DNA of 16,063 bases from a bacterium (lineage in GTDB: Bacteria > T1Sed10-126). The notes beneath the pieces were generated by a model. The model did no database searches. It saw only the letters and a list, made by a program, of their open reading frames with translations, and had not been told where the DNA came from. The DNA is taken from NCBI GenBank assembly GCA_003557545.1, contig PWOD01000088.1, forward strand, positions 1-16,063. Reading direction: 5' to 3'. Shown here in pieces: positions 1-16,063 of the stretch. The stretch's first letter is position 1. Each line of letters starts with the position of its first letter. The position numbers and the translations under genes are program-made.

Positions 1-3000
1 AAATTCCAGAATCTATCTGGAACAGCCTCCAGCAGGACAGTTTCGCCGGTCAACAGATCGACCGGTGCAGTATAGCTATCGCCGTTAATTAAAATATCTC
101 CGACTCCTTCTATATCAATTTCAACCCGATATTCCTCCTCCCAGAAAACCGGAGAAATCAGTTTGTCCGAATCAACAAACAGTTCCACAGTTGTATCGGT
201 CCCGGTAAGATCAGCAGTCCATTCTCTGAATTTCCAGCCAGCCTGCGGAATTGCTTCGATCAGATGAGTATCACCGGCTCGCAGATCAAACTGACCTGTA
301 TATACCTGACCATCAACTCTGACAGCCCCCAGACCCTGAATGTCCAGATCGATAATTCGTGTGTCCTGGACAAACTCAGCCACTATATTTCGATCAAAAT
401 TCATCTGAACAACAGTCACTGCTTGAGCTCCAAGATGATCTCCAGTCCAGCGATCAAACTGCCAGAAAACATCCGGTTCCGCCCTCAGTTCAACAGTGTC
501 ACCGCGGATCCAGGGAACTGGTGAAAGATAGGTTTCACCATTAACAAAAACCTTACCCTGTCCCTCGGTATCAATGGTCAAAAGCCGGGTGTCATGTTGC
601 AAAAATTCAGCGACAACCAGAAGATCCGATCCAACAAACAGCTGCTTAACCGGTGAAGTCCCAGAAATATCACCCTGCCAGGAGGAAAAATACCAAAATT
701 CTGCGGGGAGTGCCTCAATTGTCACTGTTTCACCAGCCAACACAACAGCCGAATCAGTCTGTTCAATGCCATCAAGCAACATAGAACCACGGCCATCTAT
801 CTGAATTTCTATAATCTGAGTATCCTGGATAAAAGTTGCTTGAACCTGTTTGTCAGCATCAATAAACAACTCGGTCACCGGGCCAGTACCAGAAAGATCC
901 CCGTCCCAGAGACTGAACCGATAATAATCATCAGCAATTGCCTGAAGCTGTATTGTTTCACCGGCGGTTAAAACTGCCGGATACTGGTAGGTATCTCCAT
1001 CGATCAGAACCTGGCCATTTCCTTCGATATCAAGCTCCAAAAGATAAGTGTCCCGGTTAAAATTAGCCACAACCTGTTTTCCACTGTCCATGAACAGTTC
1101 CTCAACCGGATAATCACTCACCAGATCAGCAGTCCAGCCGGCGAAATGGCTATAGATATCAGCCACTGCCTGCAGCGCTACAGTTTCACCACCCAGAACC
1201 GGAACAGCTGTTTGATATGTCTCACCATCCACCAGAACCTGTCCATCCCCAACAATATCTATTTCGAGAAGATAACTATCCCTGCCGAAACTGGCGACAA
1301 TCTGAAAATCTTGATCAACCAGTATTTCAAAAATCGTCCCACTACCAGAAATATCGCCGCTCCATTCTATGAAATGCCAGAACTGATCAGCCGCTGCTTC
1401 CAAAACAACAGTTTCACCTGCAAGTATTGTAACAGGCTGTTGGTAGGTTTCACCGGCAAGCCAAACCATACCTGAACCAACAACATCAACCGAAATTGTG
1501 TGGGTGTCCTGAACAAATACTGCAGTGCCAGCAAGATCACTTTCAACATAGTTTTCAATCTCTGTATCAGTCCCGCTGAAATCACCGGTCCATTCAACAA
1601 AATGCCAGTATTCCGCCGCCTCAGCCCGCAGGACTACTGTTTCACCAGCATAAAGAGTAACCGGCGCGATATAACTGTCACCATTAACAAACAGCTTTCC
1701 GAGTCCCTGTTTATCAAGGGTAAGAGTATATGTATCGCGCTGGAAATTAGCTGTTAGCGTCCAATCCCGATCAGCAAACAGAGCAAACTCTGTATCGGCC
1801 CGCTGTAGGTCACCCGACCAATCAGAGAAATGATAATACTGGTCAGCGACTGCAGTGAGAACAACTGTCTCGCCAGCCAGCAGCGTGACAGGGGACTGAT
1901 AAGTTACCCCATCGACAAGAACCGAACCCTCCCCTGCAATATCCAGATCAAGCGTATAGGTGTCCTGAGTGAAAGAAGCTGTACCGCTTATATTAGAATC
2001 AACAAACAGCTGTTGAACCTCCGAAACACCGGTCAGATCTCCAGACCAGCTATGGAAACTGTAATAATCGGCAGCCTCAGCCAGTAATGTAACTGTTTCC
2101 CCGGCCGGTAAAACAACCGGTTCTGTATAAAGCTGACCATCAACTCTAACTTCACCCTGACCAAGAATATCCAGGTCAAGCAGATAGGTGTCCTGGGTAA
2201 AATTTGCACCGACGGATTTATCACCGTTGATTAACAGTTCAACAGTCGTATCACCGGTTGAAAGATCGCCGGACCAACTGGAAAAATGCCAGTACAATTC
2301 AGGTAGCGCAGTCAATTCAACCTGCTGACCTCCATAAACAGTAACCGGCTGATCATAGACCACCCCATCGACCATAACCTCACCCTGACCGACGATATCA
2401 ACCGTCAATATAAATGTATCTCTGAAATGAACCTCAATCGCTTTACTCGAATCAATAAATAACTGCGTCGATGGCTCGTTACTGGTAAGATCCCCCCCCC
2501 AGCGATCAAACTCCCAGTTTTCATCAGGATTAGCGAGCAGACTTACCGTTTCTCCACCGGGCAACAGCATCGTATCGCTATAGGTCTGACCGCCAACAAT
2601 TAAACTACCTTCTCCAATAATTTCAGCAGTCAAACTAAACAGTTCCTGCTGGAAAATCACCTGAACAGTTTTATCAGTCCCGGCAAAGAGCTCTCTGGGT
2701 GAAGTTGATCCAGAGATATCACCAGCCCATTGATCAAAATACCAATATTGATCAGAAACGGCCTCAAGTTCAACCGTTTCACCCGCAATCAGTTCTATTG
2801 GCTGCTGATATACAACCCCATCCACCAGCAGTTCACCCTGACCAACTATTTCAACAGTTAACAGTCTGGTATCCCGCTCAAACTCAGCCGTAACTGTCCT
2901 ATCCTTTCCACCAATAAACAGCTCGACGGCAGAGTCTGAGGAATAAAACTCTCCAGACCAGCCAGCAAAATAGTAATATTCCCCGGCAACCGCTTCAAGG

Positions 3001-3332
3001 GTAACTGTTTCTCCACCACTAACCAGTTGTGGCTGGTCATAGGTATCCCCCTCAACCAGCACTTCTCCTGTACCAACTATATCCACCGTGAGCGTATAAC
3101 TATCACTAAATTCAGCGACAACATTTTTATCAGAGTCGATAAACAGTCCGACAGTTGTATCGGAGCTAACCCTGTCCCCACTCCACCCGGTAAATTTCCA
3201 GTATTCAGCCGGTTGCGCCTTCAATTCGACCATCTGACCCGGTTCTACCAGCAGCGGCTCAACATAGGTTTCACCATCAACCAGAACCACCCCTTCACCA
3301 AGGATATCCACGCTTAACATAAGTCGTTTGTT
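1..3332 (-). repeat. C-proximal array of InlB-B-like units (about 14.6 visible), Cys-free and irregular
   Basis: Fifteen GETV-type elements are seen, at 3232, 3007, 2776, 2548, 2323, 2095, 1867, 1639, 1411, 1183, 955, 727, 496, 268 and 40. Most steps are 228, but 231, 225 and 231 also occur, so single-residue indels have accumulated here and nowhere else. The array passes the eleventh unit with no GLUG block, breaking the 11+1 rule. Where other arrays have Cys it has KNVVAEF, RTVTAEF, KSVGANF, KQVVANF and similar, and I saw no cysteine codon. The array continues off the left edge. Confidence 0.92.
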
Positions 3333-6300
3333 CCAGACCGGGGAGGTTTCACCGGAGAGATAAGGATATCCATCATTTTCATCGACTGCTACCCCCTGGA
3401 CATCCCAGCCGGCGTTTAAGAAAGTCTCAATATCGGTCATCAGATCCTGGCTCAATCCGGTTCCACCATCACTCGAGGACTGTCCCGAAACATCCTGATC
3501 CCAGAAACTATCCTCAACAGTACCAAAACGATTTCTTCCAACCAGTCCTCCAACGTCTTCATCACCACTAACTACTGCGGCAGCATATGACCGCTGAATA
3601 GTTCCTTCATAATTAAGCCCGACCACACCACCGACATCCTTGATGCCGCTCACTGTCCCCCGGGCAGAAATATCTACCATTAATCCCTCATTCCGTCCGA
3701 CAATTCCTCCAACTTGCATTTCACCATCAACATCGCCAAACCCTGAAACCCGCTGGATTGATCCAAAATTATACCCAACCAACGACCCGGTCAATCCTGC
3801 TCCATTTATCTGATGTTCCCGCAGAACAAAGTTTTCGAGATGACCGGAAGCTGCAGTAAAACCAAAAAGACCCAGGTTGTTTTCGGTTGGCCTATCTATA
3901 TTCAACTCGCTAATCGTATGACCGCCACCATAAAATTGACCGGTAAACGGTTCTGATGCTGTCCCGATTGGCTGCCATCCAGCCCCACCGGCAGCCGCAG
4001 GTCCAGCCAGATTAACATATCCTTTAGTTGTCTGATCAAGACTCTCAACCAGCTTATAATGAGCATCGAGGAAATACCTGACCCGATTTAACTCTTTCCA
4101 GTTAGAAATTTCAAACGGATCCGCTTCAGTTCCCTGACCACCGGCAAAATCAGGAACAAAAACTCCTGTGGCAAACAGGTCATTATCGAAGATCACCTGT
4201 TTGGGATTCTGACTGCCAGAAAGTTCTCCTTCCCAAAGTTCAAACCGGTATGCTTCATGAACTGAAACAGCTTCAAGAGTCACCTCCTGACCTCCCTGCA
4301 CAATAACCGGTTCAATGTAGGTATCACCATCAACCAGCAGAACACCAGGACCTTCAACCGCCAGACTGAGGGTATGGGTGTCAGGCTGGAAATTCGCTAT
4401 GGCGAGACTGTTTTTGGCAACAAAAAACTCAACTTCAGCATCTTTACCACTCAATCCACCTGTCCATTCCCGGAAGTTCCAATACTGATCGGCAACTGCC
4501 TGTAATAATATCGTCTCACCGGCGACCACGGAAACCGGCGCTACATAAGTCTCTCCATCAACCAGGACCTCACCCTCACCATTAATACCTACCGTTAAAG
4601 TGTGAGTATCCCGGGCAAAAGTCACTGTACAGTTTTTATCACCATCAATAAACAGTTCGACAGCTGTATCAGCTGCTAACAGGTCACCGCTCCAGCTATC
4701 AAAATAATAGTATTGATCTGGATAAGCTATAAGCTCAACAGTTTCACCACCAATAACGTCAACCGGCTGTTGATAGGTCTCACCATCAACAAAAACCGTC
4801 CCTTCTCCAACAAAATTAATGGTTAAACTGAGGGGAACCGGTTCAAAAACTACTGTGCAATGTTTGTCCCCATCGACAAACAGTTCAGCTCCGGTATCGG
4901 CTGAACTTAGATCACCTGTCCACTCGACGAAATCCCAATATTCAGCCGCTATAGCCACCAGCTGAACTGTCTCTCCAGCAGTAAGCTGTAAGGGGGCATT
5001 ATAGACAGAACCATCGACCCACGCCTCCCCCTGGCCGACAAAGTTAACAGTTAAGATATGGGTATCACGCTGGAAGACTGCCGTACAATCGACATCTTCC
5101 TCGACAAACAGCTCGACGATAGTATCACTACCGGTTATATCTCCAAACCATTCAGCAAATTGATAAAACTGCCCTGACACTGCCTCAACAACAACCGTTT
5201 CGCCAGCAACTACTGCCGTTGGTTGCAGATAGGTTTCGCCATCGACCAGAACCACCCCGGAACCGATAAGGTCGACCGCCAGGGTATGGGTATCACGCTG
5301 AAAAACAGCTGTACAGAACTTATCACTATCAACCAGCAACTCAACTGTATTATCAGTCGATAGAATGTCGCCAAACCAACCATCAAAATTGTAATACTGT
5401 TCCGGGAAACCCTGTAGTGTAACAGTTTCTCCACCAGGTATTGTTAGCGGCTGTTGATAAGTTTCACCGTCTACCAATATATAACCGGCGCCCTGAATAT
5501 CAACTGTCAGAGTATGGGTGTCACGCCGGAAAGTTGCAGTGCAGGTTTTGTCATCATTAATAAACAGCTCGGCCATAGTATCTGCCACCTGCAGATCGCC
5601 CGACCACTCAACAAAATGATAGTACTGAGCGGACAGAGCTTCCAGACTAACCGTTTCCCCGGCATTTACCACCAGAGGTGTCTGATAGAGGATACCGTCC
5701 ACGATAATATCCCCCTGGCCAATCCTATTGATCGTTAAAATACGAGTGTCTCTCCGAAAGATTACTCCCAGCAGTTTATCATCGTCGACAAACAGCTCCA
5801 CTTGCGTATCTTCTGAATCGACAGCGCCGGACCAGCTCTCAAATCCATGATAAAGCCCAGCTATTCCTTCAAGCGTAATAGTCTCTCCGGCAGTAACCGA
5901 CAGCGTATCCTGATAGGTGTCGCCATCAACCAAAACCGTGCCTTCTCCCTCTATATATACAGTAAGTAGCCGGGTATCCTGACGGAATCCAGCAGTGCAG
6001 AATTTATCCCCGTCGACAAATAAATTAACAGTTGAATCAGATCCCACAAGATCTCCTGACCACTGATCAAAAACCCAGTATTGATCGGGCAAACCGGTCA
6101 GACTAACTGTTTCTCCCCCACCTGTTTCAACCGGTTCCTGATAGGTTTCCCCATCGATCAGTACAGTTCCCTGACCGGTTATAGCAAGTTCAATTGTGTA
6201 AAGATTCTGGGAAAAATTAGCGGTGCAGATTTTGTCGCCATCGATGAACAACTGGCTGACCTGGGCGGTATCAACAAGATCGCCGGTCCAATTTTCAAAG

Positions 6301-9300
6301 GACCAGAAATCAGCCGGCAGCGCCTCCAGTGTAATCGTTTCTCCACCTCGTACAGCAACCGGTTCTATATAGGTTTCACCAGAGAGCTTAACAACACCCT
6401 CACCAACAATTCCCAGCTCAAGAATATAAGTATCATGGAAGGTCACCGTGACTGTTTTATCAGTATCGATATAAAGTTCCTCCGTAGTATCGGCACCTGT
6501 GAGGGCTCCGCCCCATTCAACAAAATACCAGTAGTCAGCAGCCAGAGCTTGAAGCTCCAGCATCTGGCCAAAGCTTACAACCATCGGCTCCTCATAAGTG
6601 TCCCCATCAACCAATACAATCCCCTCACCTGACTGCTCCACGGTAAGCATTATAGCCTTCTGCCAGACCGGGGTTGTTTCACCGGAGAGATATGGATAAC
6701 CATCATTTTCATCGATATCGACTCGTTCAATATCCCAGCCGGCGTTAGTAAAGGTTGTATAATTGCGAATTGCCTGACCGCTTAAACCGGTTCCACCATC
6801 ACTTTCTGATTGACCTGATTTATCAATATCCCAGAAGCTGTTTTCAACAGTTCCTAAATCATCCACCCCGACCAATCCACCAATCCAGTTATTACCGGTT
6901 AGTTCGACAGCGGCAAAAGAGTTTTGGATTGACCCCTGAGAATTTTCACCCACCAGTCCTCCAGCTCCCTGATCAGCAGTTAAACTCCCAAGCGCATAAT
7001 TATTTTCCAACAGGCCGCTGTTAAAACCAACAAGACCACCGACACGGCGATCACCCTCAATCTCAAGATTCGAATAAGAACGGACAAGAGTCCCCTGGTT
7101 AATCCCTACAAGACCACCTACCCGGTTTTCACCGTTGACTGTTCCCGTCAGGTAAAGATCGGCCATTTCACCATCATTATGGCCAACAATACCTCCGGAG
7201 CGGTCACCACCAGTTATATTGACCTGCTCCAATCCAAATCCTGATAAACGTCCAGCAGCAGCAACAAATCCAAACAGAGCTGTATGTTGGTCAGCTGAAC
7301 GATCGATAAAAAGATCAGAGATTATATGGCCCTGTCCAATGATTTTTCCAGTAAACGCAGCCGTTTCCGTACCAACCGGTTCCCACCCGGCTCCACCGTT
7401 GGCCCCGGGACCAGCATGTTCGGTATAACCGTGGGTTGAAAGATCAAGATCATCGATCAGCCGATATGTTGAATCGGGATAACATCTAACTCTATGAAGC
7501 TGTGACCAGTCTTCTATATCAAACGGTGATAAATCAGTTCCCTCTCCCCCGGCAAAATCAGGGACAAAAACTGCTGTTGTGAAAAGATCCTGGTCAACAA
7601 CAACTGAGTATGGTGAAATACTGCCGGAAAAGCCATTTTTCCACTCTTCAAAACGATAGCAATAACTACCCGGACTTCCCATGATATCGATTGATTCACC
7701 ACCGAAAAACTCCAGTGGCTGGGTATAAGTTTCGCCATTAACCAGGACAGCACCATCTCCTTCAACGGCAAACTCAATAATATGGGTATCCCTCTCAAAT
7801 ACCGCAGCAATCACTTTGTTTTCATCAATAAACAGCTCAGTAATCGGAGCAGTTCCAGAAACATCGCCGGTCCAGGCAGAGAAGTGGTAATACTGATCAG
7901 CTACCCCCTCAATGGTCAAAGTTTCACCTGCTATTACTGTCATCGGTGTCTGATAGGTCTCCCCATTGACCAAAATTTCCCCTTCACCTATTGTTCCCGC
8001 AGTCAGGGTATAGGTGTCAGAAGCGAAGAAAGCCGTGCACTCTCGATCATTCCCCATGAAAAGCTCTATAGCCACAGATTCACCGGAAACATCTCCACTC
8101 CATTCATCAAAATGCCAGTAAAGATCGGCAACTGCCTCCAATATAACAGTTTCGCCGGCAGCTATTTCAAGCGGATTTTCATAAAGGTCGCCGTTAACCT
8201 GAACCGCTCCTCCGCCAACTATATTAATTTTCAATTGATAGAGTTTTCTCTGAAAAACTGCTGTGCAAATTTTGTCAGCATCAATAAACAGTTCAACTTC
8301 AGAGTCAGTATCCTGCAGATCACCGGACCAGCCGGAGAAATCCCAGTAAATGTCCGGAACAGCGGCAACAGTCACAGTCTCTCCAGCATCCAGCTCAACC
8401 GGTTGCTCATAGGTGTCTCCATCAACAAAAATAGTTCCGGGACCATCAGTAAATATTTCAAGAGTAAAGCGGTTCCGAGCAAAAATAGCTGTACAGTTAC
8501 GGTCCTCCCCGACAAATAGTTCAACTTCAGACTCAGTCCCTGAAATATCCCCGGTCCATTCAGAAAAATGATAATACTGATCAGGAAGAGCATTTAAAAT
8601 TACAGTTTCGCCGGCGGGAACATAACGTACACCATCATAAACTGTTCCATCGACAAAAACCATCCCCTGGCCCTGAATATTAACAGTCAAACTGGCTGTA
8701 TCCCTGGCAAAACTCGCAGTACACTGTTTATCATCATCAATAAACAGCTCAACTTCTGGATGCGTGCCGGATAGATCACCAGACCACTCAACAAAATGAT
8801 GATAGTCACCGGCCACCGCCTTAATAGTCATGGTTTCGCCAGCCAGAACAGCTACCGGTCCCAGGTAAGTATCTCCATCAATCAGCACCGAGCCGGTGCC
8901 GTCTGTATTAATTTCCAGCAGATGAGTCTGGCGTTGAAAAACTGCTGTACAGTTTTTATCCTGATCGACCAGTAATTCGACCATAGTTTCAGAGCCTGTC
9001 AGATCTCCCAGCCATTGTTCAAAGAAAAAGAACTCACCGGGATCGGCAGTTAAAGTTAATGTCTCTCCAGCAAATACAACCAGCGGCTGTTGATAGGTAT
9101 CACCATTAACAAAAACCTGCCCCTGACCAAGTATATCAATCGTTACTATATGAGTATCACGGAGAAAATTAGCGGTTACCTGTTTATTACTATCAATAAA
9201 AAGTTCTTCATCTGGCCCGGTGCTTACCAGGTCACCGGTCCATTCCTTGAAATGATAGTAACTATCAGGACTGGCTGAAAGGGTGACAGTTTCCCCACCA

Positions 9301-12300
9301 AATAAGATTACCGGTGTAGTATATATATCCCCCTCCACAAAGACCTGGCCTGCTCCAACCAGTTCTACTGTCAGAAGATGTGTGTCCCTGGCAAAATTTG
9401 CTGTCAGCTGTTTAGCGGAGTCAACATACAGATCAACCCGGGTATCAGGGGCTGTAAGATCTCCAGTCCAGCTATCAAAATGATAAAACTGATCCGGAAC
9501 CGCGGTCAGAACAGTAGTTTCACCGGCCGGCAGTAAAACCTCTTCTTGATAGGTCTCTCCATTAACAAGAACTACTCCATCTCCCACAGTTTCAATTTCT
9601 AACAAAAACTTATCCTGTTCAAAACTGGCTGTGCAGTACTTATTAGAATCGACAAACAGACTCTGAATAGCAGCTGTTCCTGAGAGATCACCGCTCCAGC
9701 TATCAAACAGATAGAAACTGTCAGGGATAGCCTCAAGCGAGATGGTTTCACCACCGGTTACAGCAACCGGTTCCAGGTAAGTTTCACCATCGACCAGAAC
9801 AGTGCCAGCCCCAACCGTCTGAAGATCAAGAATATATGTATCGGCAAATCTAGCAACAACTGTCCGATCTGTTTCGGAGTAAAGTTGCTCTTCCATCTGA
9901 CTGCCGGACAGCTCACCATCCCATTCCTCTAAATACCAGTATTTGTCAGGTACTGCCTCGAGCGAGATTGTTTCACCGGGAGTTAAAACCAGCGGCTCAA
10001 CATAGGTTTCACCACCAACCAGAACTGTGCCCTGCCCTTCCACTTCAACTGTCAAGAAAATCGTGTTATACCAGACAGGGTCTGTTTCTCCAGAAAGATA
10101 GGGATATCCGTCATTTAGCTCTAAATCAGTAGCCGAAATATTCCACCCAGCATCAATGAATGTTCGGATGTCCTGCATTTCTGAACTTATTAGTCCGGTC
10201 CCGCCACCGCTGTCGATTTTTCCAGAACTTTCGATATCCCAGAAACTATTCTCAATATCACCAAACAGGTCCCGACCGACCAGTCCACCAACGTTAATCT
10301 GTCCAGTAACCTGGGCTGTTGAATAAACGTTACTGACTAACCCATCATAGGCAAACCCGGCCAGCCCTCCAACAACCTCATCGCCGGTCACTTCACCCCG
10401 GGCATAAACGTCGACCAGCAAGCCATCATTATAGCCAATCAACCCACCCACCCCACGTTGACCGGAAACAGTAACTTTGGCATAAGAAGCGTATATTTCA
10501 CCCACACTCCGTCCCGCCAATCCACCCACATAATCATTTCCAGCTATTTGCCCGGTCAATTGAAGATTTGAAAGTTCCCCAAGATTGTACCCGACCGCCC
10601 CACCTGTATGATTACCTCCCGTTATTTCAACGGTTGAAAGTTCCAGATTCTGTAGCTGAGCCCCACTATCTATATGGCCAAAAAGGCCCACATACTCAGT
10701 TGTCGGTCGATTAATATAAAGATCAGCTATCTGATTATTCTGACCGTCAAACATTCCCCCAAAAGCTGCTGAGTTGTCTCCAACAGGAAGCCAGCCAGCA
10801 CCGCCCCGGGCGGTCACCCCGGCCAGTGTGTCATAACCATCACTGAACTGATCGAGATTTTCAATCAGCATATAACTTGAGTCTGGATAACAACTGACTC
10901 GGTTTAACTCCCACCAGTTTGATATCTCAAAAGGCTCCTGTTCTGTACCAACACCGTCAGAAAAATTAGCTGTGAAGAGAGCTGTTGTCAGAAGATCCCC
11001 ATAGAGCAACAACTCACTCCTGTGAGCCGTACTGCCGGGGCCATCAATCCATCGATCAAACCGATAACAATCAGTTAACGATATTGCCTCCAGCAGGACA
11101 GTCTCTCCTCCCGGGACCGGGACCTCTTCGGTATAGGTTTCACCGTCAACCAGGACTATTCCGGGCCCAACAGCTGCTACTGTAAGCTGATAAATTTTTT
11201 GTTCGAAATTAGCCGTGACAGTTTTGCTGCCGTCAACCAGCAACTGCACCACAGTATCCGCATCAACAAGATAACCGGTCCAACAGTCGAAATAACAGTG
11301 CTGATCAGATTTAGCAATAAGCTCTACTGTCTCTCCGGCGGTTACAGTGAGGGGCAGCTGATAAGTTTCACCGTCTACAAGAACTTCACCCTCACCCTCA
11401 ATTTCAACCATAAGGGTATGTGTTTTACGCTCAAAAAATGCTGTGGAATGACTGTCCTCCTCAACAAACAGCTCGACTGTTTTATTTGTGCTTACAACAT
11501 CACCGCGCCACTCTATAAACTGATAATAGTCAGCCGGCAGAGCCTCAATAGTCACTGTCTCCCCGGCAATAACGGTAACTGGCTGGCTATAGGTTTCCCC
11601 ATCAACCAGCAGATCACCATCCCCGATAAGATCAAGGGTTAAACTGTACGTATCGCGCTGGAAAATAGCAGTACATTCAAGATCACTGTCAACAAACAGT
11701 TCAACCGCAGTATCAAAATCAACAATATCCCCAGTCCACTGTTTAAACTGGGAGTATAAATCAGCAATTGCCATCAATGAAATTGTTTCTCCAGAGTTCA
11801 CAGAAACCGGTTCAACATATTCTAACGCTTCAAACCAAACAGTTCCTTCCCCTACCAGATTAACTGTTACCGTATGTGTGTCTCGCTCAAACAGAGCGCC
11901 AACATATTTGTCGCCATCAACAAACAGCTGGGTTTCCAGTTCAGATCCAGAGATATCAGCAAACCAACTGTCAAAATAATAATATTGATCCGGTTGAGCC
12001 ATAAGGTTGATAGTATCTCCAGCTTTTACCACCAGCGGTTCAACATAGGTTTCACCATCAACCAGAACAGACCCTGAGCCACTTACCTCAATCTCTAATG
12101 TATAGGTATCCTGAGTAAAGGTTGCCGTACACTGCTTGTCAGCATCAACTAACAGCCCAACCTGGGTGTCGGTGGTCGTTAAATCTCCGCTCCAGTCAGC
12201 GAATGAATAGTAGTCAGCCGCCAGACCGGACAGCAGCACCGTCTCCCCGGCATTCACAGTCACCGGTCCAGTATAACTATCTCCATCAACCAGTACCATT

Positions 12301-13379
12301 CCCTCACCAACTATATTAACCGTCAAACTATGGGTATCACGGGTGAAGCTGGCTGTACAGTTTTTATCTTCCTCAACAAACAGCTCAACCTGCGTATCGG
12401 TTCCAGTTAAATCACCGCTCCACTGAGCAAACGAATAATATTGACCCGGTAGTGCAGTCAGCAGAACCGTCTCTCCAGCGGCCACTATAACCGGTTCAAT
12501 ATAACTATCTCCGTCGACCAGCACCTCCCCGGTTCCAACAGTATTGACTGTTAGACTATGAGTATCGCGTAGAAATTCAGCCGTACACTGCTTATCGTCA
12601 TCAATAAATAACCAGAGCTGCGTATCAGTTCCAGTTAAATCACCACTCCATTCAGCAAATGAATAGTATTGATTTGGCCGGCCAGTAACTAAAACTGTTT
12701 CTCCCGCCTCCACAATAACCGGTTCAATATAACTATCTCCATCAACCAGCACCGTTCCTCCACCAACCGTATTTACAGTTAAACTATATGTGTCACGGAT
12801 AAACTCAGCAGTACACTGCTTGTCAGAATTGACAAATAGCTCAGTCACCATAAAGGTTCCTGAAATATCCCCACTCCACTGATCGAACGAATAATATTGT
12901 CCCGCTTCGGCAGCCAGAACAACTGTTTCCCCTGCCTGCACAACAACCGGTTCGGTATAGGTCTCGCCATCCACCAGAACAGTTCCCTCGCCCAGCATGC
13001 CAACTGTCAAACTATAAGTATCAGGCTGAAAACTGGCGGTACAATTTATATCCCCATCAACCAGTAGTTCTACCTCTGTATCACTACCCGAAACTGCTCC
13101 CGACCATTCTGTGAAGCTCCAGAACTGACCGGAAACTGCTTCTAAGAGCAGAGTTTCTCCACCTTGAACTTCCAACGGTGCAACATAGGTTTCGCCATCC
13201 ACCAGAACAGTGCCATTACCAGCTATATCAACGGTTAAACTATATCTGTCGTTAAATACTGCTTCAATTTTTTTGTCGGTATCTATGTACAGATAGGCGG
13301 TTGTATCTTCCCCGCTAAGATCACCATCACAGTTGGAAAAATACCAGAAATCATCCGGTTCAGCCACTACTGTCAGAGT
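1..13379 (-). CDS. Downstream segment of the giant repeat protein: 36 InlB-B units and GLUG blocks C, B, A; 3' end outside window
   Basis: After the TAG the same frame stays open for 4,459 codons to the left edge, with no further stop. Residues 1-803 are B-units, 804-1103 GLUG block C, 1104-1939 eleven B-units, 1940-2239 GLUG block B, 2240-3075 eleven B-units, 3076-3349 GLUG block A, and 3350-4459 a terminal run of B-units. The first possible reinitiation codon is GTG at 13365-13367, which is just a Val of the repeat. So long an open frame beyond a stop shows that selection kept it open until recently, or that the stop is an error or is read through. No catalytic domain or anchoring signal is seen. 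Role inferred from the families: extracellular adhesin or structural fibre. The segment from about 4628 to 1 appears to contain no cysteine, unlike the rest. Confidence 0.87.
2492..2500. repeat. Run of nine C (nine G on the coding strand)
   Basis: The coding strand reads TGG GGG GGG GAT, giving R-W-G-G-D-L in the W-[ST]-G-D motif. The frame is correct at nine. It is the longest homopolymer I noticed in the window. Confidence 0.9.
3333..4154 (-). repeat. GLUG block A (274 residues, five GLUG-type motifs), last GLUG block in the window
   Basis: It opens with PDFAGGQGT and LNRVRYFLDA, then FTGQFYGGGHTISEL. Motifs are LGLFGFTA, GSLVGYNFG, GGIVGRNEG, GGVVGLNYEG and GGLVGRNRFG. It ends SFWDQDVSG, then NDGYPYLSGETSPVW. 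It is 78 bases (26 residues) shorter than blocks B and C, which is one motif. I see no cysteine in it, whereas B, C and D all have RV[RS]C near the start. Confidence 0.93.
4155..6662 (-). repeat. Array of exactly 11 InlB-B-like units between GLUG blocks B and A
   Basis: The length is 2,508 bases. Motif positions are 6562 (GQM in place of GET), 6337, 6109, 5881, 5653, 5425, 5197, 4969, 4741, 4513 and about 4285, with the same 225-then-228 spacing as the other inner arrays. Seven units have Cys before the closing F. The last two do not, and the boundary unit reads EAYRFELW, having lost the Cys that its three counterparts have. Confidence 0.93.
6663..7562 (-). repeat. GLUG block B (300 residues, six GLUG-type motifs)
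   Basis: It opens with PDFAGGEGT and LHRVRCYPDS, then FTGKIIGQGHIISDL. The GLUG-type motifs are TALFGFVA, GGIVGHNDG, GGLVGINQG, GGLVGFNSG, GGLVGENSQG and GGLVGVDDLG. The end is SFWDIDKSG, GGTGLSGQAI and NDGYPYLSGETTPVW. It is 900 bases, the same as block C. Confidence 0.93.
7563..10070 (-). repeat. Array of exactly 11 InlB-B-like units between GLUG blocks C and B
   Basis: The length is again 2,508 bases. GETV-type elements lie at 9970, 9745, 9517, 9289, 9061, 8833, 8605, 8377, 8149, 7921 and 7693, with one 225 step after the GLUG block and 228 throughout the rest. Six units carry Cys before the closing F (KYCTASF, KNCTAVF, KQCTASF, RNCTAIF, KICTAVF, RECTAFF). The first unit, two inner ones and the last two do not. 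The last unit is the boundary type (YCYRFEEW ... DLFTTAVFVPDF). Confidence 0.93.
10071..10970 (-). repeat. GLUG block C (300 residues, six GLUG-type motifs)
   Basis: It opens with ANFSDGVGT and WWELNRVSCYPDS, passes through FGGMFDGQNNQIADL, and has motifs starting VGLFGHID, GGAVGYNLG, GGLAGRSVG, GGLIGYNDG, GGLAGFAYDG and GGLVGRDLFG. It ends SFWDIESSG, then NDGYPYLSGETDPVW. It is 900 bases long, equal to block B and exactly one 78-base motif longer than blocks A and D. Confidence 0.93.
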
Positions 13380-13478
13380 CTAACCGGGTGTCACAACCAT
13401 CGGGGCGACATAGGTTTCACCATCCACCAGGATATTCCCCTCGCCGGAGATTGATGCCGTGAGCAGGAGAGTTTTGTA
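10971..13478 (-). repeat. Array of exactly 11 InlB-B-like units between GLUG blocks D and C
   Basis: The length is 2,508 bases, or 11 x 228. GETV-type elements lie at 13378, 13153, 12925, 12697, 12469, 12241, 12013, 11785, 11557, 11329 and 11101. All steps are 228 except the first (225), because the unit just after a GLUG block lacks one residue in its linker. That first unit is the damaged one: it has the TAG, and its Trp is Cys (FSNCDGDL, 13329-13331). Six middle units have the Cys before the closing F. The unit with GETV at 11329 instead has a C-Y-F-D-C pair just before its Trp. The last unit is the boundary type (DCYRFDRW). Confidence 0.93.
13380..13382 (-). other. In-frame TAG inside a repeat unit
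   Basis: The unit reads VVTPG-stop-TLTVVAEP where others read PGETVxLxA. The plus strand has gtctaacc for the usual gtctcacc, a single G-to-T change on the coding strand (GAG to TAG). The frame then stays open for 4,459 codons. Confidence 0.93.
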
Positions 13479-14849
13479 CCAAACAGGTTCTGTTTCACCT
13501 GATAGGTAGGGATAACCATCATTTCTATCGACACCGGTAGGCTCAATATTCCAGCCCGCCGCAACAAATCTATCATATTCCTTCAGTTCAGCGGTACTGA
13601 GCCCTTCTCCCCCTTCACTCACATTCAAACCTGAAACTTCCGTATCACAGAAACTATTTGAGACGGAACCAAAGTCATTAATACCAACCAGTCCACCCAG
13701 AAGACCGGCTCCAATTACTTCGGCGGCTGCATAAGATTTTTCAACCATACCTTCAAAATTATATCCAACAACTCCACCGATCCCCTGGTCTCCACTAACT
13801 ATTCCCCGAGCATAAAGATTTTCAATAATACTATCATTCTGTCCTACCACGCCACCAACCCGCCGATCGCCTGTTACCTGACCGACAACAAAGGCACGAC
13901 TGATAATACCAAGATTACGTCCCACCAGCCCGCCAGTATAATCATCCCCCTCGACCGAAAGATTTATCAACCCCAGGTCGCTGATTGAACTTCCCGCGCC
14001 GGTATAGCCAAATAAACCAACATAGTCTTCGGCGGGGCGCACAACATTCAATCCGGAAATGGTATAACCGGCTCCATCAAAGGAGCCAGTAAATCGATTG
14101 CTCCCATCACCCAGCGGTTTCCAACCGGCACCGGCGTTTGCAGCAGAAGAAGCCAGCTCTACATAACCAGAATCCTGTTCATCAAGATTTCCAACCAGAA
14201 GATAAGCTGAATCAGCAAAACATCTAACCCTATCCAACTCCCACCAATCTGAAACCTCCAGCGGTGCTGCTGCTGTCCCTTCACCGGCGGAAAAATCAGG
14301 TGCGAACTGCACTGTGACAAACAGATCACGATTAACAAACAGCGGCTGACTGTAATCAACTCCAGTAAGATCTCCCAGCCATTGTTCAAACCGGTAACAT
14401 TCACTAACCTGGTAGGCCTCCAGAATAACAGTTTCACCGGCTACCAGCTCTACCGGAACCGAATAAGTTTCTCCATCAACCAGAACTTTACCAGGTCCAT
14501 CAAAAACAATTTCAAGAGTATAGATAATACGCTCAAAATTAGCCGTGCATTCAACATCATTTTCCACAAACAGTTCAGTTACTGCTGCGGTCTCCGAAAT
14601 ATCACCACTCCACTTATCAAACGAATAATATTCGGCCGGCTGAGCGCTCAGCAGGACCGTCTCACCAGCATTCACAACCAGCGGTCCGAGATAACTGTCC
14701 CCGTCAACCAGCACTGTTCCTTCCCCTGCTGTATTAACTGTTAAACTGTGGGTATCACGGCTAAAGCTGGCCGTGCACTGCTTATCTCCATCAACAAATA
14801 ATTCAACTTCAGTATCGACCCCCGCCAGATCGCCGCTCCAGTCAGCAAA
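13380..14849 (-). CDS. Middle segment of the giant repeat protein: InlB-B units plus GLUG block D, ends at in-frame TAG
   Basis: There are 489 codons between the two stops. Residues 1-183 finish the broken unit and cover two more B-units, including the special unit (CYRFEQW) that precedes each GLUG block. Residues 184-457 are GLUG block D, from PDFSAGEGT to YPYLSGETEPVW. The rest opens the next B-unit, where TAG replaces the Glu of a GETV motif (PG-stop-T). The first usable internal start is GTG at 14712-14714, with AGGGG eight bases upstream; both belong to the repeat (GEGTV), so this may be chance. A gene caller would probably report about 444 residues from that GTG. I read it as a continuation of the upstream segment. 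The Trp of the closing SFWD motif in block D has become Cys (13647-13649), which fits relaxed selection here. Confidence 0.85.
   Translation of the reverse strand, partial: FADWSGDLAGVDTEVELFVDGDKQCTASFSRDTHSLTVNTAGEGTVLVDGDSYLGPLVVNAGETVLLSAQPAEYYSFDKWSGDISETAAVTELFVENDVECTANFERIIYTLEIVFDGPGKVLVDGETYSVPVELVAGETVILEAYQVSECYRFEQWLGDLTGVDYSQPLFVNRDLFVTVQFAPDFSAGEGTAAAPLEVSDWWELDRVRCFADSAYLLVGNLDEQDSGYVELASSAANAGAGWKPLGDGSNRFTGSFDGAGYTISGLNVVRPAEDYVGLFGYTGAGSSISDLGLINLSVEGDDYTGGLVGRNLGIISRAFVVGQVTGDRRVGGVVGQNDSIIENLYARGIVSGDQGIGGVVGYNFEGMVEKSYAAAEVIGAGLLGGLVGINDFGSVSNSFCDTEVSGLNVSEGGEGLSTAELKEYDRFVAAGWNIEPTGVDRNDGYPYLSGETEPVWYKTLLLTASISGEGNILVDGETYVAPMVVTPG
13479..14300 (-). repeat. GLUG block D (274 residues, five GLUG-type motifs)
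   Basis: The block opens with PDFSAGEGT and a WWELDRVRCFADSAYLL segment, then FTGSFDGAGYTISGL, the usual lead-in to GLUG repeats. Five motifs of about 26 residues follow: VGLFGYTG, GGLVGRNLG, GGVVGQND, GGVVGYNFEG and GGLVGINDFG. It closes with GLSTAELKEYDRFVAAGWNI and NDGYPYLSGETEPVW. The GLUG family is found in bacterial surface proteins and is thought to form beta-helical or beta-solenoid-like structure. In this copy the closing SFWD motif is SFCD (TGG to TGT at 13647-13649). It has the same length, 822 bases, as block A. Confidence 0.92.
14712..14727 (-). promoter_or_regulatory. Possible internal ribosome binding site and GTG start after the TAA
   Basis: On the minus strand AGGGG (14727-14723) stands eight bases before GTG (14714-14712), and AAGGA lies between them. 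These bases encode A-G-E-G-T-V, the normal repeat motif, and several other units have similar purine runs before a GTG. It is the first start-like site below the TAA and could permit reinitiation, but nothing in the sequence shows that it is used. Confidence 0.25.
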
Positions 14850-14852
14850 TTA
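14850..14852 (-). other. In-frame TAA inside a repeat unit
   Basis: The unit reads ADYY-stop-FADWSGD where its neighbours read ADYYSFADWSGD. The plus strand has aaattaataatag where sister units have aaatgaataatag, a single C-to-A change on the coding strand (TCA to TAA). The motif and phase are intact on both sides. Confidence 0.93.
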
Positions 14853-16063
14853 ATAATAGTCGGCAGGCACTGCTGTCAGAACAATCGTCTCACCAGCAGC
14901 AATAGAAACCGGACTGACATATGTATCCCCCTCAATCAACACCGTTCCCCCACCAACTGTATAAACCGTTAAGCTGTGGGTATTACGGCTGAAACTGGCC
15001 GTGCACTGTTTGTCTCCATCAATAAACAGCTCAACTTCCGTATCGCTCCCAGTCAGATCTCCGCTCCAGTCGGCAAAGGAATAGTAGTCGGCCGCCCAAG
15101 CGCTCAGCAGGACCGTCTCTCCGGCATTCACAATCACCGGCCCGAGATAACTGTCCCCGTCAACCAGCACCGTTCCTTGACCAACTATATCAACCGTTAA
15201 GCTGTGGGTATCACGGCTGAAGCTGGCCGTGCACTGTTTGTCTCCATCAATAAACAGCTCAACTTCCGTATCGCTCCCGGTCAGATCCCCACTCCAGTCA
15301 GCAAATGAATAATAGTCGGCCGCCCAAGCGCTCAGCAGGACCGTCTCCCCGGCATTCACAATCACCGGGCCGAGATAACTATCCCCGTCAACCAGCACCG
15401 TTCCTTGACCAACTATATCAACTGTTAAACTGTGGGTATCACGACTAAAGCTGGCCGTGCACTGTTTGTCTCCATCAACAAATAGCTCAACTTCCGTATC
15501 AGTTCCCGTTAGATCTCCGCTCCAGTCAGCAAATGAATAGTAGTCGGCCGCCAGAGCAGTCAGCAAAACCGTCTCACCAGCGACCAGGGCAACCGATCCG
15601 GCATAACTGTCCCCGTCAATGAGCACCGTCCCCTCACCAACCAGATTAACTGTTAAGCTGTGGGTGTTACGGCTAAAGCTGGCCGTGCACTGTTTGTCTC
15701 CATCAACAAATAGCTCAACTTCCGTATCAGTTCCCGTTAGATCCCCGCTCCAATCAGCAAAGGAATAATAGTCGGCCGCCAGAGCGCTCAGCAGAACCGT
15801 CTCGCCGGCATTCACAGTCACCGGTCCGAGATAACTGTCCCCGTCAACCAGCACCGTTCCTTCTCCAACTATATCGACTGTTAGACTGTAGGTGTCACGG
15901 CTGAAGCTGGCCGTGCACTGTTTGTCTCCATCAACAAACAGCTCAACTTCCGTATCAGTTCCCGTCAGATCTCCGCTCCAGTCAGCAAATGAATAATAGT
16001 CGGCCGCCCAAGCGCTCAGCAGGACCGTCTCCCCGGCATTCACAATCACCGGGCCGAGATAAC
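14850..16063 (-). CDS. Upstream segment of giant InlB-B-repeat protein, ends at in-frame TAA; 5' end outside window
   Basis: This is the most N-terminal part visible: 403 codons and a TAA stop. It runs off the right edge, so the true start is not seen; the first GTG (16047-16049) is the Val of a repeat and not a credible start. It holds five full 76-residue units and parts of two more, with GETV elements exactly 228 bases apart at 16027, 15799, 15571, 15343, 15115 and 14887. Each unit carries YYSFADWSGDLTG, ELFxDGDKQCTASF and HSLTV in order. One 76-residue unit has 13 Asp/Glu and only 2 Lys/Arg, so the segment is very acidic. Units are nearly identical in DNA. The stop replaces a Ser codon in the YYSFADW motif (TCA to TAA), and the repeat pattern continues unchanged beyond it. 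It is therefore probably not the natural end of the protein. Role inferred: part of a surface or secreted fibre. Confidence 0.85.
   Translation of the reverse strand, partial: YLGPVIVNAGETVLLSAWAADYYSFADWSGDLTGTDTEVELFVDGDKQCTASFSRDTYSLTVDIVGEGTVLVDGDSYLGPVTVNAGETVLLSALAADYYSFADWSGDLTGTDTEVELFVDGDKQCTASFSRNTHSLTVNLVGEGTVLIDGDSYAGSVALVAGETVLLTALAADYYSFADWSGDLTGTDTEVELFVDGDKQCTASFSRDTHSLTVDIVGQGTVLVDGDSYLGPVIVNAGETVLLSAWAADYYSFADWSGDLTGSDTEVELFIDGDKQCTASFSRDTHSLTVDIVGQGTVLVDGDSYLGPVIVNAGETVLLSAWAADYYSFADWSGDLTGSDTEVELFIDGDKQCTASFSRNTHSLTVYTVGGGTVLIEGDTYVSPVSIAAGETIVLTAVPADYY

Follow-up and report, generated by a model that had tools for sequence, protein, structure and literature searches.

Equal super-unit lengths in a giant B-repeat and GLUG protein are probably a by-product of fixed-size domains and equal unit counts

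When long segments of a giant repeat protein share exactly the same length although their sequences have diverged, is the length itself maintained by selection, or does it simply follow from the way in which the protein is built? This question is raised by the window analysed here (C214), a 16,063-nucleotide stretch that constitutes an entire contig (PWOD01000088.1) within a 2.15 Mb bacterial genome of 239 contigs (GCA_003557545.1). It contains three consecutive super-units, each an array of 11 B-units followed by a GLUG block, and the initial annotation had proposed that their matching lengths reflect a structural constraint, such as a fixed spacing between GLUG domains along a fibre. We consider it probable (roughly 0.7) that the window codes for an interior portion of a giant fibrillar surface protein, which is probably exported, and that the equal lengths are a by-product of equal unit counts.

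The window is occupied by a single reading frame on the minus strand (positions 3-16061), a strand that had gone without mention in the initial annotation. The frame spans 5,353 codons, is open at both contig ends and is interrupted by two in-frame stops. Using a profile built from the window itself, we placed 56 B-units (PF18998) of ~76 amino acids each, the same number as originally counted. In order, these form array S0, with at least eight units, arrays S1, S2 and S3, with 11 units each, and array S4, with at least 15, and four GLUG blocks lie between them. S0 (14295-16061) holds units 1-8, the first of which is cut by the contig end, and is followed by GLUG block 1 (13473-14294; 274 amino acids, 4 GLUG motifs). 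Super-unit S1 (13472-10065; 3,408 bases) comprises units 9-19 and GLUG block 2 (301 amino acids), S2 (10064-6657; 3,408 bases) comprises units 20-30 and GLUG block 3 (301 amino acids), and S3 (6656-3327; 3,330 bases) comprises units 31-41 and GLUG block 4 (275 amino acids), while the final array S4 (3-3326) contains units 42-56 without a GLUG block. Measured between profile matches, GLUG blocks 1-4 are 274, 301, 302 and 276 amino acids long. Pfam searches, for which the frame was divided into six pieces, matched PF18998 in every one (55.6-290 bits; gathering cut-off 23.6 bits) and GLUG (PF07581) in four (35-46 bits; gathering cut-off 20.5); the remaining Pfam names on the frame, being scattered weak matches to repeat sequence, were distrusted. 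A viral-contig scan returned matches of 25-34% only, mostly to the GLUG part, and an overlap search of the contig ends found nothing beyond self repeats that would extend the protein.

The super-unit lengths first reported are borne out to the base, with edges displaced by 6 bases. Of the proposed composition of 11 x 228 bases the count of 11 stands, and the 2,508 bases do not, as each array consists of 75 + 10 x 76 amino acids, or 2,505 bases. Aligned as proteins, S1 and S2 show 47% identity and zero gaps across 1,136 amino acids, and S3 differs from both by one 26-amino-acid gap, equivalent to one GLUG coil fewer. Because exact repeats of 30 nucleotides or more are absent from positions 3333-13478, collapse of repeats during assembly is unlikely there, and an assembly artefact was set aside for this region. 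The B-unit pitch is 76 amino acids in 42 of 45 interior units of the window and in 17 of 17 in a sister protein (C92), and the constancy of length therefore belongs to the unit. Since the fold tolerates almost no insertions or deletions, arrays with an equal count have nearly equal length, and the match in length between S1 and S2 then follows, as a by-product, from fixed pitch, equal counts (11) and an equal number of GLUG coils. Good evidence for a selected molecular ruler is absent: equal lengths follow from fixed-size domains together with equal counts, and exact length repeats in giant repeat proteins can arise without such a ruler. The equal count itself may stem from block inheritance or coincidence. 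Given the multi-unit array counts of the genome, the chance of three equal array counts in a row is ~0.03, and that of three elevens in a row 0.002, a post hoc figure; the chance of two equal GLUG block lengths is ~0.014.

Predicted structures offer a physical basis for the fixed pitch. A four-unit AlphaFold model, for which the input was an alignment of nine window segments, reached a pLDDT of 94.6 in the best of five predictions and 94.4 in the second, with the remaining three poor. The best model consists entirely of beta structure, in which one strand continues into the following unit, and on this model the B-units are predicted to form a beta-rod joined strand to strand. Among solved structures, its best matches were to surface and pilus proteins of bacteria, with modest Z scores (8.4 for 6fwv), the grappling hook protein GhpA (9flw) was matched in Foldseek only (E 1.5e-4, low TM), and InlB B-repeat structures gave weak fold matches only (E ~0.2). 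A cap-GLUG-cap model was confident solely in its GLUG core (pLDDT ~85-95); this core (model residues 88-371) aligned with the beta-helix of an IgA1 protease (3n6z; Z 25.4, rmsd 3.1, 242 aligned), a fold that the GLUG blocks are predicted to share. The earlier idea of a fibre carrying spaced GLUG domains thus retains its rod architecture and gains a structural reason for constant length, in the fixed pitch and the modelled strand-to-strand joints.

If these models are accurate, the ~76-residue B-units would build a rod by end-to-end stacking, and the GLUG blocks would be beta-helix modules inserted along it, probably with a ligand- or surface-binding role. Periscope Proteins and fibrillar adhesins (SasG, Rib and Sgo_0707; PMC8201768, PMC8286594) resemble the window in that tandem stalk domains build a long rod; in Periscope Proteins, as would hold for the window, rod length tracks unit number and units multiply by recombination. 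Unlike these proteins, the window has mostly diverged units (~46% identical) and rods that alternate with several internal GLUG blocks. All window arrays match the family PF18998 (Divergent InlB B-repeat, Flg_new_2) well above its cut-off, yet differ from ordinary members in their unusually many copies and in the special cap units found at GLUG junctions. With the GLUG domain of IgA1 proteases (3n6z, 6xja, 7uvk) the window shares GLUG motifs (PF07581) and the predicted beta-helix fold, but it contains no protease domain, and its rods are spaced apart by recurring GLUG blocks. GLUG proteins of Methanimicrococcus, some of which carry Flg_new domains, have been proposed to aid adhesion (PMC9723798).

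Among the alternatives, the one that survives best holds that S1-S3 arose through wholesale copying of one ancestral module, made up of 11 B-units and a GLUG block, and then diverged, length being inherited with no need of selection on it. We regard this as a tenable minority explanation, short of even odds. It would account for the count of 11 three times running and for the gapless alignment of S1 with S2 and the lone gap in S3, but any two arrays of 76-amino-acid units are expected to align without gaps. The initial annotation had suggested that unit k of each super-unit should cluster with unit k of the others, and that clustering by neighbourhood would speak against its proposal. In identity matrices and in a tree built from 53 units with IQ-TREE, position clustering is present for units 1 and 11 and weak for unit 2, but fails for the interior units 3-10 (19 tree changes versus 17.7 with shuffled labels). 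Clustering by neighbourhood is weakly detectable (9 changes for array labels versus 11.8, p 0.05), and units that lie farther apart in the protein are less alike (Mantel r -0.14, p 0.0008, with S0 left out). When the register of units 3-10 was permuted, S1-S3 showed a marginal signal in favour of block copying (p 0.06) that strengthened once S4 was included (p 0.014-0.02) but faded when the 11-unit array of C92 joined S1-S3 (p ~0.3). On either side of that single C92 array stand the GLUG blocks most similar to two of those in the window, although the window's own GLUG blocks are not consistently mutual nearest relatives. Mean unit identity is 45-46% within the window's protein versus 42% to units of the genome's other proteins, and synonymous sites among units are saturated (pS ~0.72). 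As the units are near saturation, the position test has little power against an old super-unit duplication, and the super-units may or may not descend in register from a single one. The preferred reading, a by-product of equal counts, has to accommodate the unusual run of three consecutive elevens and the weak register signal with S4, by which the arrays may stem from a single block of 11 units; under the preferred reading, 11 would have been either block-copied long ago or reached separately.

The likeness of units 1 and 11 has a different source. Genome-wide, in counts that here and below cover the contigs picked up by family and DNA searches, the motif [CA]YRF occurs in 11 of 32 last units before GLUG blocks versus 0 of 363 interior units, and a pitch of 75 in 14 of 38 first units after GLUG blocks versus 5 of 363 interior units. 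In S1, these signatures are seen in the first unit (13248-13472, minus strand; 75 amino acids) and the last (10968-11195, minus strand; CYRF). The cap signature is common to proteins with other array sizes, and because the junction signatures recur across the genome, the position-specific likeness of units 1 and 11 reflects their role at the junction. Cap units constitute a testable design rule for joining rods and beta-helices.

How the counts came to be fixed is suggested by S0, in which units 2-5 (14985-15896, minus strand) are 82-94% identical at the DNA level, whereas adjacent units in S1-S4 share ~53-58%. With dN/dS of 0.02-0.5 among the near-identical units of S0, units 2-5 are recent tandem copies under purifying selection. 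Rods may thus lengthen through tandem unit copying, a process still visible in S0, and as copies diverge, reduced recombination would leave the unit count frozen; a fixed 76-residue pitch, equal counts and DNA divergence that hinders recombination would together suffice for equal length. Changes in repeat number have been linked to high repeat identity (PMC8201768), a link that would agree with S0 still changing in unit number while S1-S4 are frozen.

A second alternative is that the gene is a decaying pseudogene, whose present lengths would be functionally meaningless. Each of the two stops, TAA in S0 unit 6 (14850-14852, minus strand) and TAG in unit 9, the first of S1 (13380-13382, minus strand), differs by a single base from the codon that sister units predict (TCA for serine and GAG for glutamate, respectively), and other giant frames in the genome are stop-free over 3,000-5,487 codons. 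However, there are zero frameshifts across the 5,353 codons and dN/dS is well below 1 in recent copies, and we judge decay less likely than not. The two stops may represent gene decay or, as isolated substitutions, consensus errors in the metagenome assembly. In either case one transversion, a G-to-T or a C-to-A change, would account for the stop.

More than 500 B-units were found genome-wide, in about 50 frames (L009-L052, located on further contigs). Array sizes range from 1 to 38 units: arrays between GLUG blocks have 1-13, those lacking such blocks reach 38, and 11-unit arrays between GLUG blocks were found in the window, C92 and C54. The proposal that fibre function requires a fixed 11 units between GLUG domains, kept by selection, draws on the three consecutive 11-unit arrays and the strand-to-strand unit junctions of the model, but is very improbable and was rejected as the main reading, given that counts vary within the same protein (at least 15 units in the adjoining S4) and the same genome (1, 2, 3, 4, 5, 6, 9 or 13 between GLUG blocks in sister proteins), and that GLUG blocks range from 244 to 401 amino acids.

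The single related genome compared, the sole other one of the phylum (from another genus; two genomes in the set), has few B-units (~8-14 matches), and set against it the B-repeat and GLUG proteins of the present lineage represent an extreme lineage-specific expansion. A bolder picture, which we consider improbable, is of a lineage whose genome is full of composite surface fibres, with beta-helix GLUG nodes and B-repeat rods connected through dedicated caps, and with a spacing in multiples of 76 residues that is held at 11 over consecutive segments.

Because both ends of the window's protein lie off the contig, we infer export of its gene product from the sister proteins. These have signal-like N termini, and some of their heads are subtilisin-like, glycine-rich or LRR-like, as named by eye from sequence. 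Sister C-terminal tails of ~100 amino acids match CHU_C / FlgD_ig, with 27.8 bits to CHU_C in one (cut-off 27) and 23 bits, under the cut-off, in a second. Tails matching CHU_C, FlgD_ig or PorU-like C-terminal domains liken the sisters to cargo of the type IX secretion seen in the Bacteroidetes/Fibrobacteres/Chlorobi, from which the window differs in that its own tail is off the contig. Genome searches, one of which was run without a positive control, did not find a full PorU sortase, the protease of that system, or a C25 peptidase, which does not imply their absence, and SprA-like translocon pieces were detected as distant matches on two contigs (C23, L094, E 4.7e-17; and C86).

Sister loci also vary in their architecture. 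In C104 (L015, L052), several adjoining genes comprise a subtilisin-like protease segment, then B-units, GLUG blocks and a type IX-like tail. In C133 (L014) and C53 (L020), arrays reach 30-38 units, GLUG blocks are lacking and the preferred pitch is 81 rather than 76. The opposite balance to that of the window is seen in C61 (L026) and C228 (L023), which span 5,487 and 4,363 codons, respectively, and have single B-units between GLUG blocks.
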